From: Stenotrophomonas maltophilia | Lineage (GTDB): Bacteria; Pseudomonadota; Gammaproteobacteria; Xanthomonadales; Xanthomonadaceae | DNA length: 32,700 nt | Assembly (NCBI RefSeq): GCF_013464915.1 | Contig: NZ_RAVT01000006.1 | Span: 1-32,700 of the forward strand | Direction: 5' to 3' | Part shown: positions 3,068 to 9,270 of the stretch, piece after piece | How the letters are laid out: the number at the start of each line of letters is the position of its first letter | Numbering within the stretch: the first letter of the stretch is position 1 | Program-made: the position numbers and the translations under genes | Notes under the pieces: generated by a model | What the model was told of the DNA's origin: nothing | The model's database searches: none | Seen by the model: only the letters and a program-made list of their open reading frames with translations

Positions 3068-3184
3068 ATCCGTCGTCCCTGCTATGGCCTTCCATTCTCC
3101 AGCAGCTGAATGACACCTGCGTGACATTCACCGCGGGCAAACAGCGCATTGCTAGCCTGTGCCACCCCGTCCTGGAAGTACCGC

Positions 3185-4120
3185 ATGACCACCCCGCGCT
3201 GGCGCCTGATCCTCAACGGAAAATCCGCAGGCAATGACGAGCTGCGCGACGCGGTCGGTCATTGGCGTGGGCAGGGCGTGCAGCTGGACGTGCGGGTGAC
3301 CTGGGAGGACGGCGACGCCGAGCGTTACGTGGCCGAGGCGATCGATCATGGTGTGGACGTGATCGTGGCCGCAGGCGGCGACGGCACGCTCAGCGCGGTC
3401 GCGGAAACGCTGGCGCATCGTGAGGAACCGGCCGATGCGCTGCCCACGCTGGCGCTGATCCCGATGGGGACCGCCAACGATTTCGCCACGTCGGCAGGCA
3501 TTCCGACCGCACCGAAGGATGCCTTCGCCTTGATCGGGCAGACCGCGCCGCGTGCCATCGATCTGCTGCGCGTGGACGCCGATGGCACGCCGTGGTGGTG
3601 CGCCAATCTCGCCAGCGGTGGCTTCGGCACGCAGGTGACGGTGGAGACCGACGCCGGCCTGAAAAAGATGCTTGGCGGGCTGGCCTATGTGATCACCGGC
3701 ATCGCCAAGCTCGGCCGCATCGAGCCGATCAACGCGCGCCTGTCCGGCCCGGATTTCACCTGGGAAGGCGACTTCATCGCGCTGGGCATCGGCAACGGTC
3801 GCCAGGCCGGTGGCGGCCAGCAGCTGTGTCCGCAGGCACTGATCGATGACGGGTTGCTGGATGTGACGGTGCTTCCGGAGCTGGAAGGCGAAGTCACCGC
3901 CACCCTCGGCCAGATGCTGAAATCGGGCACCCAGGCTGCATTGGAACAGCTGGCCACGCGTGCGCGGCTGCCGTGGCTGCAGGTCGCCTCCGAGCGCCCG
4001 CTGACCCTCAACCTGGACGGCGAGCCGGTGCAGGCCCGCCAGTTCCGCATCGACTGCGTGCCGGGCCGGGTACGGATGCATCTGCCGGCCGATTGCCCGC
4101 TGCTGGGCGTGCAGGGGTAG
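3185..4120 (+). CDS. yegS: YegS-family lipid kinase
   Basis: A 311-residue diacylglycerol-kinase-fold enzyme; the family phosphorylates lipids such as phosphatidylglycerol at the membrane face. The N-terminus [19 protein letters not shown] and [16 protein letters not shown] closely follow YegS. The nucleotide loop GGDGT is at residues 64-68 and the second glycine-rich loop is PMGTANDFA. The C-terminal beta-sandwich contains [16 protein letters not shown] and LNLDGEP. The start at 3185 has GGAAG 7 bases upstream; an in-frame ATG 36 bases earlier lacks family similarity. The stop codon TAG is part of a GTAG repeat motif (4117-4120), so the last residues may have been set by repeat insertion. 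Confidence 0.92.
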
Positions 4121-4232
4121 AGCCGGCCGGCAGGGTCGACCGGTAGAGTCGACTGTTAGTCGACTTACGCGCGTAGCGCGGGGGTTTTACGCCGTCGGCA
4201 CGAAGCGCAGTCGACTGGCAGTCGACTCTACC
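4117..4232. repeat. SMAG monomer plus second 91-bp inverted SMAG dimer
   Basis: GTAG at 4117-4120 (containing the yegS stop) begins a partial element with AGCCGGCCGGC. From 4142 to 4232 lies a full inverted dimer: GGTAG, AGTCGACT, GTT, AGTCGACT; a 43-base centre almost identical to that at 58-99; then the inverted half ending CTACC. It differs from the first copy by a few substitutions and one indel. Confidence 0.88.
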
Positions 4233-4314
4233 GGTTCCCGCGCCGGTCGCCGCCACATCGGCCCCGGGCGTCCCGTGGTTCAGTTTCCCAGGGTTCCCCT
4301 CCCGCCGATCCTGC

Positions 4315-4320
4315 GATACA
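4315..4320 (+). promoter_or_regulatory. Possible extended -10 of the trpE promoter
   Basis: TGC followed by GATACA resembles an extended -10 (TGN-TATAAT). No good -35 is visible. A start near 4327 would give a leader of about 114 bases before trpE, a usual length for a trp leader. Stretch 4233-4440 otherwise holds only the leader described next. Confidence 0.3.
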
Positions 4321-4328
4321 GTCGAGGG

Positions 4329-4478
4329 GTGTCCAGCCTGACGACCCCGCATACCCTTTCTTCCGCACGCCGTTGGTGGCGATGGTGGCCCGTTGCCGTC
4401 GTCCGCCCCCATAACGCTGTGTCCCGGAAGGAAAGTCGTCTTGAACTCGCACGCTCAGTTTCAGCTGCAGGCCGCTGA
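4329..4478 (+). CDS. Candidate trp leader peptide overlapping trpE
   Basis: An open frame containing RRWWRWWPV, with Trp codons at 4374-4379 and 4383-4388. It passes through the trpE ribosome site and start (4441) and stops at 4476-4478, 38 bases inside trpE. The only plausible starts are GTG (4329, close to a possible transcription start; or 4275), and neither has a well-spaced ribosome site. CTTTC-TTCCG at 4356-4365 can pair with CGGAA-G-GAAAG at 4425-4435, which is the trpE Shine-Dalgarno. A ribosome stalled on the Trp codons would cover the upstream strand and free it. Family knowledge: trp leaders in other proteobacteria carry tandem Trp codons. The translational mechanism here is inference. 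Confidence 0.45.
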   Translation: MSSLTTPHTLSSARRWWRWWPVAVVRPHNAVSRKESRLELARSVSAAGR

Positions 4479-5916
4479 AGGCCACACCCATATTCCCGTC
4501 GTCCGTGAAGTGCTGTCCGACCTGGACACGCCGCTTTCGGTCTATCTGAAGCTTGCCGACGGCCCCAATACCTACCTGTTTGAATCCGTCGAAGGCGGCG
4601 AACGCTTTGGTCGTTACTCGATCATCGGCCTGCCGGCGCGCCGCGTGTACGCCTTCCACGGCCACACGCTGACCGTGCGCGAGGACGGCCAGGTGGTGGA
4701 CACCCGCGAGGTGGCCGACCCGTTCGCCGAGGTCGAGGCACTGCGCAGCGCCCACTCGGTGCCGAAGCTGGATGGCCTGCCGGGCTTCACCGGTGGCCTG
4801 GTCGGTTGGTTCGGCTTCGAGTGCATCGGCTACATCGAACCGCGCCTGGCACCGCCGGCCGGCCGCGACGAGCTGGGCACGCCGGACATCCTGCTGCTGG
4901 ACTCCAACGAGCTGGCGGTGTTCGACAACCTCAAGGGCCGGCTGTACCTGATCGTGCATGCCGACCCGCGTGTCGAGGGTGCGTTCGAGCAGGCCCAGGC
5001 GCGCCTGGACGCACTGACCGCCAAGCTGCGCGCACCGGGTGCCGGCTATCCCGCGCCGCTCAACAGCGATGTGCTGGACGAGTCCGATTTCGTCTCCGGT
5101 TTCACCCGCGAAGGCTTCGTCGATGCGGTCCAGCGCAGCAAGGAATACATCCGCGCCGGTGACATCTTCCAGGTGGTGCTCAGCCAGCGCCTGAGCGTGC
5201 CGTTCAAGGCGCGCCCGGTGGATGTGTACCGCGCGCTGCGTGCACTGAATCCTTCGCCGTACATGTACTTCCTCGATGTCGGCGACCTGCAGGTGGTCGG
5301 TTCCTCGCCGGAAATCCTGGTACGCCTTCAGGATGGCGAAGTCACCGTGCGCCCGATCGCAGGCACCCGTCCGCGCGGTGCCACCGTCGAGCAGGATCTG
5401 GCACTGGAAGCCGAACTGCTGGCCGATCCGAAGGAACGCGCCGAGCACCTGATGCTGATCGACCTCGGCCGCAACGATGCCGGTCGCGTGTCCAAGGCCG
5501 GCACGGTGGAAGTGGGCGAGCAGTTCGTGATCGAGCGCTACAGCCACGTCATGCACATCGTCAGCGAAGTGACCGGGCAGCTGCAGCCGGGCCTGAGCTA
5601 TGCCGATGTGCTGCGTGCCACCTTCCCGGCGGGCACTGTGAGTGGTGCGCCGAAGATCCGCGCGCTGGAAGTGATCCGCGAGCTGGAACCGATCAAGCGC
5701 AATGTGTATGCCGGCAGCATCGGCTACATCGGCTGGCACGGCGATGCCGATACCGCGATTGCGATCCGCACCGCGGTGATCAAGGACGGCCGCCTGTACG
5801 TGCAGGCCGGCGCCGGCATCGTTTACGACTCGGACCCGGACAAGGAATGGGACGAGACGATGAACAAGGGCCGCGCGCTGTTCCGCGCCGTCGCCCAGGC
5901 CGCCAAGGGCCTGTAA
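4441..5916 (+). CDS. trpE: Anthranilate synthase component I
   Basis: Converts chorismate plus ammonia (from TrpG) to anthranilate, the first committed step of tryptophan synthesis. The product has 491 residues. The N-terminal feedback-inhibition region LFESVEGGERFGRYS is intact. Catalytic chorismate-domain motifs PIAGTRPRGAT, LMLIDLGRNDAGRVS and FPAGTVSGAPKIRALEVI are all present. The start is TTG at 4441 (protein LNSHAQFQLQAAEGHTHIPVV), supported by GGAAGGAAA 6 bases upstream and by the family N-terminus. A 16-codon in-frame extension upstream to GTG/ATG lacks similarity. The rare TTG start and the overlapping Trp-rich leader fit control at translation. trpG lies 850 bases downstream, separated by a SIMPL-domain gene. 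Confidence 0.97.
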   Translation: MNSHAQFQLQAAEGHTHIPVVREVLSDLDTPLSVYLKLADGPNTYLFESVEGGERFGRYSIIGLPARRVYAFHGHTLTVREDGQVVDTREVADPFAEVEALRSAHSVPKLDGLPGFTGGLVGWFGFECIGYIEPRLAPPAGRDELGTPDILLLDSNELAVFDNLKGRLYLIVHADPRVEGAFEQAQARLDALTAKLRAPGAGYPAPLNSDVLDESDFVSGFTREGFVDAVQRSKEYIRAGDIFQVVLSQRLSVPFKARPVDVYRALRALNPSPYMYFLDVGDLQVVGSSPEILVRLQDGEVTVRPIAGTRPRGATVEQDLALEAELLADPKERAEHLMLIDLGRNDAGRVSKAGTVEVGEQFVIERYSHVMHIVSEVTGQLQPGLSYADVLRATFPAGTVSGAPKIRALEVIRELEPIKRNVYAGSIGYIGWHGDADTAIAIRTAVIKDGRLYVQAGAGIVYDSDPDKEWDETMNKGRALFRAVAQAAKGL

Positions 5917-5983: not shown

Positions 5984-6763
5984 ATGAAGCTGCTGAGCGC
6001 ATTGCTGTGGTCGTCACTGCTGGCCACGATGGCCCCGTCTGCGTGGGCGCAGGCCAATACCATTCCCTCGCAGCCGCACCTGCTGGTGAAGGGCGAGGCG
6101 CGCCGCGTGGTGATGCCGGACCGGTTCGGCCTGCAGTTGAACATCGAAGAGACCGACATGGATGCCGACGCCGCGCGCCGCCGCGTGCAGGACAACGTTG
6201 CCCGCGTGCTGGCACTGTTCAAGCAGCACAAGGCGGTGGAAGGCAGCGTGCGCGCGGACAACCTGCGGATTGGTCCTGCGACACGCTATGAGCAGAACCG
6301 GCAGGTCTTCATCGGTACCCGCGTGTCACGCCAGCTGCGCGCCAGCTTCGCCAGCGTCCAGCAGATGCAGGATGTCCTGGGTGCGCTGAAGGCCAACGAG
6401 AACGTGCAGGTCAGCAGCGTGGCTCCGACGTACTCGGGTGAAGTGGCGCTGCGCCGCGAACTCAAGGGTGAGGCGGCGGCCCAGACCCGCCAGTCCGCGC
6501 AGGGCCTGGCCAAGGCCTACGGCACCCAGCTGCGTGGTCTGTACAGCATTTCCGATGTGGCGCCGAACTTCGCCTATGGCATCCAGGCAGGCAGTTGGCC
6601 CAGCAGTGGGGACCTGGTGACGCCACCTTCGCCGCCCGCGCCCGAGGCCCCGATGAACAGCATCGAGGCCACGGGTTCGCGCCTGCGCGAGTCGGTGGAA
6701 GCCGGCCCCATCACCTACACCGAAAACGTATACGCCATTTTCCTGATAAGCGACGGAACCTGA
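5984..6763 (+). CDS. Secreted SIMPL-domain (DUF541) protein
   Basis: A 259-residue exported protein. The signal peptide is [22 protein letters not shown], with predicted cleavage before QA at residue 23. The mature part opens with [26 protein letters not shown], the usual SIMPL/DUF541 beginning, and continues with [22 protein letters not shown]. The family includes periplasmic oxidative-stress proteins (YggE) and outer-membrane or kinase-interacting proteins; the exact role here is unknown. A GGAG site precedes the ATG. It sits 67 bases after trpE and its stop is 2 bases before the trpG start, so it is almost certainly co-transcribed and possibly translationally coupled with trpG, although no link to tryptophan is known. 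Confidence 0.85.
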
Positions 6764-7369: not shown

Positions 7370-8401
7370 ATGAGCTTCTCCCCCCAGGAAGCCCTGCAAC
7401 GCACCATCGAACACCGCGAGATCTTCTTCGACGAAATGGTCGACCTGATGCGGCAGATCATGCGCGGCGATGTCTCGCCGATGATGACCGCCGCGATCCT
7501 CACCGGGCTGCGCGTTAAGAAGGAAACCATCGACGAGATCGCCGCTGCGGCCACGGTCATGCGTGAATTCGCGCTGGCGGTGCCGGTGGCCGATACCACC
7601 CACCTGGTCGACATCGTCGGCACCGGCGGCGATGGCTCGCACACCTTCAACATCTCCACCTGCGCGATGTTCGTCGCCGCTGCCGCCGGTGCGCGCGTGG
7701 CCAAGCATGGCAACCGCAGCGTGTCGTCCAAGTCCGGCAGCGCCGATGCCGTCGAAGCACTGGGCGCGGCCATCGAGCTGCAGCCAGCGCAGGTGGCCGC
7801 TGCGATCGAGCAGACCGGCATCGGCTTCATGTTCGCGCCGATCCACCATCCGTCGATGAAGGTGGTCGCGCCGGTTCGCCGCGAGATGGGCGTGCGCACC
7901 ATCTTCAACATCCTCGGCCCGCTGACCAACCCGGCCAGCGCGCCGTCGGTGCTGATGGGCGTGTTCCACCCCGATTTAGTGGGTATCCAGGCACGCGTGC
8001 TGCGCGAACTGGGCACCGAACGCGCCATGGTGGTCTGGGGCCGCGACAACATGGACGAGATCTCGCTGGGCGCCGGCACCCTGGTCGGCGAACTGCGCGA
8101 CGGCAAGGTGCGCGAATACGAGATCCACCCGGAGGACTTCGGCATCGCCATGTCGGCCAGCCGCAACCTGCGCGTGGACGGCCCGGAGCAGTCCATCCAG
8201 ATGCTGCGTGCCGTGCTGGACAACGAGCCTGGCCCGGCGCTGGACATCGTCGCGCTGAATGCCGGCGCCGCGCTGTACGTGGCCGGCGTGGCCAGCGACA
8301 TCGGTGACGGCCTGGCCCGCGCCCGTGCCGCCATCGCCAACGGCAGCGCCCGCCAGCGCCTGCAGCAGTATGTCGAGACCACCCGCGCGCTGGTTGCCTG
8401 A
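7370..8401 (+). CDS. trpD: Anthranilate phosphoribosyltransferase
   Basis: Transfers phosphoribosyl from PRPP to anthranilate. At 343 residues it is the normal length. The PRPP/Mg loop [14 protein letters not shown], the [22 protein letters not shown] segment and the [11 protein letters not shown] motif are intact. It starts at ATG 7370 with AAGGAG 7-8 bases upstream. Third gene of trpG-D-C; 74 bases separate it from the trpC start. Confidence 0.97.
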
Positions 8402-8475
8402 GCGCGCGGTTCAGCCTGACCCCCTTGATGGCCGATAATGGCCGTCCTCACCGCCCCCGCACCGAACCGACGACG

Positions 8476-9270
8476 ATGAGCGACATCCTGCAGACGATCC
8501 TGGCCCGCAAGGCCGAAGAAGTGGCCCAGCGCCGCGCCCAGCGCCCGCTAGAGGAGCTGCAGGCCGCCCTGGCCAGCGCCCCGCCGGTACGTGGCTTCGT
8601 GCGTGCGCTGCAGGCGGCGGTGGCCAACGGCGACCCGGCTGTGATTGCCGAAGTGAAAAAGGCCAGCCCGTCCAAGGGCGTGATCCGCCCGGATTTCCGC
8701 CCGGCCGACATCGCCGTCAGCTACGAGTTCGGCGGTGCCAGTTGCCTGTCGGTGCTGACCGACGTCGATTTCTTCCAGGGCGCCGACGCCTACCTGCAGC
8801 AGGCCCGCGAGGCCTGCACGCTGCCGGTGCTGCGCAAGGACTTCGTGATCGACGCCTACCAGGTGTACGAGGCGCGCGTGCTGGGCGCCGACTGCATCCT
8901 GCTGATCGTCGCCGCGCTGGATGACACCCAGCTGGCCACCCTGTCCGAACTGGCGCTGTCGCTGGGCATGGACGTGCTGGTGGAAGTGCATGACATCGAC
9001 GAACTGGAGCGTGCGCTGCAGGTGCCGGCACCGATGATCGGCATCAACAACCGCAACCTGCGCACCTTCGAGGTGTCGCTGCAGACCACGCTGGACATGC
9101 AGAAGGCGGTGCCCCGTGACCGCCTGCTGGTGACCGAGAGTGGCATCCTGGGCCCGCAGGACGTTGCGTTGATGCGCGATGCCGGCATCCATGCCTTCCT
9201 GGTCGGCGAAGCCTTCATGCGCGTCGAAGAGCCGGGCGAGGGCCTGCGTCAGCTATTCTTCGCGGCATGA
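8476..9270 (+). CDS. trpC: Indole-3-glycerol-phosphate synthase
   Basis: Closes the indole ring from CdRP to indole-3-glycerol phosphate. The 264-residue TIM barrel is monofunctional, without a TrpF domain. Signatures: N-terminal [16 protein letters not shown], the catalytic-lysine segment [40 protein letters not shown] and VGEAFMR. ATG 8476 fits the family start; an in-frame ATG at 8425 would add unrelated residues. Its last four bases overlap the start of the next gene (ATGA), indicating coupling. The later steps (trpF, trpB, trpA) are not in the window, which matches the split trp layout of the family. Confidence 0.97.

Follow-up and report, generated by a model that had tools for sequence, protein, structure and literature searches.

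How is trpE controlled when a short reading frame rich in Trp codons runs across its start out of frame? This question arises in the window analysed here, a 32,700-nucleotide stretch of DNA from Stenotrophomonas maltophilia (contig NZ_RAVT01000006.1, positions 1 to 32,700 of the forward strand). In this window, trpE (4441..5916, + strand; Pfam Anth_synt_I_N and Chorismate_bind) begins with TTG at 4441-4443, and a leader ORF of 49 codons plus TGA (4329..4478, + strand), with a predicted leaderless GTG start, overlaps it by 38 nt. We propose, with a probability of about two in three, that this element acts as a Trp-responsive translational attenuator, with a leaderless leader ORF overlapping trpE as its basis. 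A translational attenuator had already been suggested by the first-pass annotation of this DNA, and the comparison with relatives supports that reading.

A diacylglycerol-kinase-like gene (3149-4120) lies upstream of the leader region. On the other side, a SIMPL-domain (DUF541) gene assigned by Pfam (5984-6763) separates trpE from the next trp genes, at 7370-8401 and 8425-9270, with Pfam domains in keeping with TrpD and TrpC, respectively. Upstream of the trpE promoter, in the gap that follows the diacylglycerol-kinase-like gene, positions 4139-4235 hold a 27-nt inverted repeat (93% complementary) that includes a direct 19-nt repeat, AGTCGACT..AGTCGACT, and looks like a small dispersed palindromic repeat.

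The search for TrpE covered 247 genomes of the family and gave matches in 232; the trpE upstream regions were read in 130 loci spanning 31 genera. As 130 of the 232 were read, those with the TrpE most like the query first, the more distant genera are under-sampled. The 90 most query-like loci (30 loci and 60 further upstream stretches) formed the first set and 40 more distant ones the hold-out, for which a prediction was set down before the loci were read. All counts are of raw loci with kinship ignored, and genus-level counts were used instead of a tree. The window's genome belongs to genus g1, and g1, g7 and g17 are probably Stenotrophomonas, Xanthomonas and Pseudoxanthomonas, respectively. 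Named loci served only for the first look and the out-of-family view.

The four Trp codons in five described by the first-pass annotation are present as claimed (TGG TGG CGA TGG TGG; 4374..4388, + strand), with a conserved core, TGG CGA TGG, at 4377-4385. This W-R-W core was found in 114 of the 130 loci and in 25 of the 31 genera (84/90 loci of the first set, 30/40 of the hold-out); it is absent from 16 loci, one of which has a degenerate leader. Leaders carry two to four Trp codons in 109 of the 114 core loci and a single one in the other five. The core was located with GGCGATGG, and the divergent cores of L115, L147 and L158 were added by hand; L199 and L175, also read by hand, were kept outside the 114. 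The Arg codon between the Trp codons (4380-4382) is CGA in 114/114 core loci under a search pattern biased towards CGA, and because the core was found with GGCGATGG, this conservation is partly ascertained. CGA is read by an inosine tRNA, and its invariance may reflect either a constraint from the hairpin or a pause codon. It should be noted that the core alone is no marker, since TGGCGATGGTGGCC with one mismatch matches 66 places in the genome, against 15 for the control. By eye, an ATG at 4382 inside the core opens a second frame.

Sixteen different spacings between core and trpE occur, ranging from 58 to 115, yet a single phase is kept in 112 of the 114 loci; the phase is constant in 44 of 46 genus-by-spacing combinations. 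In the window, the trpE frame is +1 relative to the leader frame. The leader frame had been said to continue through the trpE ribosome site and TTG and to end at 4478, which we confirm, and a frame open across the trpE start is kept in 101 of the 114 core loci. The other 13 leaders end before or at the trpE start, so that the overlap is not indispensable; moreover, because 12 of these 13 short leaders keep the phase without needing it, the phase signal is perhaps partly inheritance. The first set has 77 long leaders in phase, whose leader frame is by definition free of stops ahead of trpE; over the same stretch, 21 and 15 stops lie in the remaining two frames. When the short ones are included, all 82 in-phase core loci of that set have 5 stops in the leader frame, against 21 and 17 in the others. 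The phase was also kept in 30/30 core loci of the hold-out, as predicted. The first-pass annotation had named a lack of conserved Trp codons or pairing in relatives as grounds for refutation; the comparison went against refutation, with the Trp codons and the frame kept. As for trpE itself, weak starts are usual: among the 92 core loci with NTG at the aligned position, 55 have TTG, 34 GTG and 3 ATG.

The leader terminates at a TGA (4476..4478, + strand) built from the trpE codons GCT GAA. All in-phase leaders that are open up to this site stop exactly there (96/96; 86 by TGA and 10 by TAA), in 23 genera and in both sets (73/90 first-set and 23/40 hold-out loci). The other five of the 101 long leaders end at +8 (two), +20, +29 and, out of phase, +46, counted from the second trpE codon. 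The T of the stop comes from the third position of a trpE codon, which is GCT in 92 of the 96 loci, ACT in two, TCT in one and AGT in one. For comparison, GCT accounts for 186 of the 1964 Ala codons (9.5%) in 30 trpE bodies, and within the same trpE segment 67 of 590 comparable codons end in T. Of the 34 other loci, two have the stop, namely L175, in which no leader is seen, and L199, which has the degenerate core WRCRP.

In the hold-out, 23 of the 30 core loci stop at the site, 20 of them via GCT, and 7 end before trpE; of the 10 loci without the core, 8 lack GCT at the site, and L175 and L199 have it. The prediction therefore failed in part, for 7/30 leaders and 2/10 coreless loci. Overall, core loci ending elsewhere occur in eight genera (g4, g11, g14, g17, g20, g27, g45 and g52). 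Earlier synonymous stops at a codon before Glu are used in 2 of 62 cases, against about 7 expected from the 67/590 rate with kinship ignored, a shortage that is suggestive only.

Three other origins of the stop were considered and rejected. A chance or by-product overlap is rejected by the phase, stop and hold-out results. Codon bias near the gene start as the cause of GCT is rejected by the 67/590 T elsewhere in the segment and by the lack of the stop in 32 of the 34 loci in which no leader ends there. A local CAGC/GCTG hairpin, seen in folds, does not explain GCT either, because the replacements (TAA for TGA in 10 loci; AGT, TCT or ACT for GCT in 4) keep the stop. The comparison indicates selection for an upstream ORF running out of frame across the trpE start. 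When differences are sorted by codon position, position 3 leads in the leader tail of g1 and g7, slightly in g17 and not in g11; the N-terminal leader parts have no clear position-3 lead, and no clear peptide conservation by codon position was found. Selection seems to act on the leader frame, not on the peptide.

At the other end of the leader, GTG 4329-4331 opens the frame VSSLTTPHTLSSARRWWRWWPVAVVRPHNAVSRKESRLELARSVSAAGR, read in the window down to the TGA. A -10-like hexamer, TACAGT (4317..4322, + strand), ends 6 nt before this GTG, and a weak -35-like element, TTCCCC (4294..4299, + strand), was seen by eye 17 nt before the -10; in the position profile, T is only mildly enriched at -23/-22 relative to the hexamer. 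A consensus scan found no sigma-70-like promoter in 4100-4600. In 113 of the 114 core loci, an in-frame ATG or GTG follows the end of a TANNNT hexamer (mostly TAAAGT or TACAGT) at a distance of 6-8 nt; in the remaining one the distance is 10 nt. This leader start lies 11-23 codons upstream of the core. As a control, the same arrangement precedes 1 of the 1035 other ATG/GTG codons of these regions, taken as all those more than 12 nt away. The exact leader start is chosen by rule, since the in-frame ATG/GTG with the hexamer spacing nearest 6.5 (among 6-10) was taken. RNA polymerase usually initiates about 7 nt past the -10 element; given this usual start and the hexamer spacing, the leader ORF is probably leaderless, with transcription starting on its start codon. 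The position of GTG 4329 near the transcription start had been flagged earlier as the weak point, and with the hexamer spacing kept in 113/114 loci it has become a strength.

The pattern combining hexamer, spacing, start and core has one match in its own genome, which is this locus, and the reversed-pattern control also has one. Across 121 genomes, 17 match, 14 of them in the family and all of these with leader-like sequence; the 3 matches outside the family look like chance, and the reversed control pattern also matches in a few of the 121 genomes.

A hairpin (4378..4403, + strand), in which 4378-4386 pairs with 4395-4403, has the Trp codons as its 5' arm. At least 8 of 9 pairs are kept in the best register in 104 of the 114 core loci, whereas the same arm tried inside trpE gives 3/114. 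Changes in the hairpin are almost confined to the 3' arm, which is the expectation if the codons fix the 5' arm. When RNAalifold was run on two ungapped sets (51 and 23 distinct sequences), the Trp-codon hairpin was recovered but the Shine-Dalgarno (SD) helix was not. By comparison among relatives, we thus found conservation of the Trp codons, their phase, the overlap, the stop inside trpE, the promoter-to-start spacing and the Trp-codon hairpin; on this sequence evidence, the element is real, conserved and selected.

We then considered how the leader might act on the trpE ribosome site. The anti-SD arm CTTTCTTCCG (4356..4365, + strand) is complementary to the trpE SD arm CGGAAGGAAAG (4425..4435, + strand), read as CGGAA-G-GAAAG with one bulged G, and the two are paired in the minimum-energy fold. 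Taken alone, the fold of this region does not stand out (z = -1.25), and 26 of 200 shuffles are as stable or more so. Over the 114 loci, the SD region pairs with the stretch before the core with a mean probability of 0.68, reaching 0.80-0.87 in g1, g7 and g17. On average, self-pairing gives -14.6 kcal/mol, against -12.3 kcal/mol with swapped partners, with a mean fraction of 0.30 of swaps as good. The pairing beats shuffles weakly, the fraction of shuffles as good having a median of 0.24 and a mean of 0.33, and eight genera (g4, g6, g14, g20, g25, g31, g43 and g44) have no excess over shuffles.

In the folding model, SD accessibility is 0.28 in the free leader and 0.44 when a ribosome is masked at the first core codon, a mask that raises it by more than 0.1 in 77 of the 114 loci. 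A control mask just 5' of the SD gives 0.41, and a mask at the fourth core codon 0.33. In g1, the unpaired probability of the SD is 0.13 in the free leader and about 0.5 if only the RNA downstream of the stalled ribosome folds; over all loci, such downstream-only folding gives 0.51, a value without a shuffled control. SD sequestration and its release are thus predicted by modelling, with masking likely in g1, g7 and g17, near the window, and a moderate, unproven case for it across the family. For the 10-bp SD-sequestering stem of the first-pass annotation, this means that the pairing is present and supported in these three genera, with only moderate support elsewhere.

If masking of the SD alone acted on trpE, the overlap would be a by-product of compact spacing. 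Such an attenuator, based on structure only and of the kind reported for mycobacterial poly-Cys leaderless ORFs, would suit the masked SD of the nearest genera and the 13 of 114 leaders that do not run past the trpE start, which are presumably functional all the same. We consider it unlikely, given that the exact stop is kept in 96/96 in-phase open leaders, against 2/34 other loci, and that one phase persists across 16 spacings. Constraint on an Ala codon would hardly be expected of a by-product.

From the arrangement of the leader we infer a probable mechanism, and with it the direction of the Trp response. Transcription would start on the leader GTG at 4329, so that ribosomes would enter at the 5' end, with no Shine-Dalgarno sequence involved. 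When charged tRNA-Trp is ample, the leader ribosomes would pass the Trp codons, cross the trpE ribosome site and TTG out of frame and terminate 38 nt inside trpE, too far in for re-initiation at trpE. Behind the passing ribosomes, the Trp-codon hairpin and the anti-SD/SD helix would re-form, and trpE would stay low because of both the out-of-frame passage and these re-formed structures. When Trp-tRNA is short, a ribosome would stall on W-W-R-W-W, 55-67 nt upstream of the trpE start, where it would sit on the 5' arm of the hairpin, between the anti-SD arm and its partner; a stall at the first Trp codons would cover the anti-SD arm as well. As the stalled ribosome would separate the arms, the SD and the trpE start would be free and trpE would be translated.

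Within this mechanism, the overlap may serve as a guard against re-initiation at trpE. According to a study cited in the review PMC12548453, coupling fell with overlap and was absent at -25 nt, compared with an overlap of 38 nt here. A proposal given in PMC4833913 is that leader ORFs whose end lies about 10 nt upstream of a gene boost translation of that gene. Our proposal can be taken one step further, tentatively and at somewhat less than even odds: in most of the sampled genera, the overlap itself would be the main switch, with a leaderless, amino-acid-sensing upstream ORF shutting trpE by out-of-frame passage. If so, a stop written into the coding sequence of trpE would fix one of its codons.

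A long overlap might also work the other way. Leader ribosomes that pass and end 35 nt past the trpE start could unfold the SD helix, so that leader translation would activate trpE; a long overlap can indeed keep the ribosome site clear of the terminating ribosome, for which PMC12548453 cites MS2 coat/lysis (-50 nt). We find such activation by coupling improbable, since masking the terminating ribosome in the model leaves the SD no more open than it is in the free leader (0.28 in both cases) and since trpE would peak when Trp is plentiful, opposite to need.

About equally improbable is transcription attenuation, intrinsic or Rho-dependent, in which stalling would decide the entry of RNA polymerase into trpE. 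It is the usual mode of Trp leader peptides, and Rho-dependent polarity could add to the model that we propose. The title of a cited work mentions attenuation of trpE and trpGDC in Pseudomonas putida. Against it, a consensus scan found no terminator-like site in 4100-4600, and the longest T-run between core and trpE is at most 4 in 114/114 loci, with 6 T in 8 at a single locus, L180. The earlier statement that no hairpin followed by a U-run precedes trpE is borne out by these two results, and an intrinsic terminator before trpE is rejected, as no site lies in 4100-4600 and no T-run stands out in the 114 loci. At Rfam gathering thresholds, no family matched here, the T-box model included; two tRNAs were the only matches in the window. 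Finally, a hungry-codon +1 frameshift from the leader into trpE, giving a leader-TrpE fusion when Trp is scarce, is hardly credible: although the trpE frame, +1 to the leader, is by eye open back to 4342 in the window, of the 77 long leaders of the first set that are in phase, 21 have a trpE-frame stop separating core from start, which disfavours it.

The overlapping translational attenuator proposed here has relatives among known systems. Escherichia coli trpL is a transcription attenuator, with which this leader shares its Trp codons before trpE, a stall-dependent RNA switch and Trp codons in a hairpin arm; it differs in that no terminator was found, the start is predicted to be leaderless and the leader ends inside trpE, whereas trpL ends before it. 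The nearest known kind, by analogy, appears to be the mycobacterial poly-Cys leaderless short ORFs, for which Canestrari et al. 2020 reportedly described a stalled ribosome that blocks a structure masking the downstream ribosome site. To our knowledge, they are the known example of amino-acid-sensing leaderless short ORFs. Both have a short ORF, predicted to be leaderless in the present case, with clustered codons for the end product, but here the amino acid is tryptophan and the gene trpE, in a family of Gammaproteobacteria, with the Trp codons inside a conserved hairpin. This leader may also differ from the mycobacterial ORFs in running 38 nt out of frame into the gene that it would regulate, where its stop is conserved. 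PMC9031893 likewise describes mycobacterial poly-Cys leaderless ORFs.

If the proposal holds, Trp and Gammaproteobacteria would be added to the known range of such sensing by leaderless short ORFs, and the control of trpE in a large family, with Stenotrophomonas and Xanthomonas among its members, would be explained with neither a terminator nor a known RNA family. In eukaryotes, ATF4-type overlapping upstream ORFs cross the main start out of frame and keep the main ORF off unless upstream events change. This leader has in common with them an out-of-frame upstream ORF over the main start, whereas it is bacterial and would add amino-acid-specific stalling and SD masking. Should the overlap be the main switch, it would be a bacterial counterpart of ATF4-type upstream ORFs, combined with starvation stalling. 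Whether a bacterial start can be repressed by elongating ribosomes that sweep over it can be put to a direct test here by synonymous changes. The family also offers a natural experiment on overlapping upstream ORFs, as 96 leaders pin their stop inside trpE and eight genera have core loci ending elsewhere. Among the matches listed in a search by title and abstract of a library with few subscription papers, no Trp leader before trpE was found for Xanthomonas or Stenotrophomonas.

Other Gammaproteobacteria share the GGCGATGG core in short W-R-W leaders, for example Chromatiales (L024), Microbulbifer (L027) and Marinobacter (L026). Short leaders with this core were seen in other Proteobacteria at L024, L025, L026, L027, L029, L030, L031 and L034, and further at L035, L036, L037, L038, L040, L041, L047 and L052. 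In contrast to the leader in the window, these out-of-family short leaders end before trpE in 16/16 cases, as does that of the betaproteobacterial L075. Three of them (L025, L030 and L052) have T-runs of 5-6, which could terminate transcription. Lastly, the genome of the window also encodes a TrpR-family gene (PF01371; G000:C42:101567-101821, L221), so that Trp control may possibly act at the promoter level as well.
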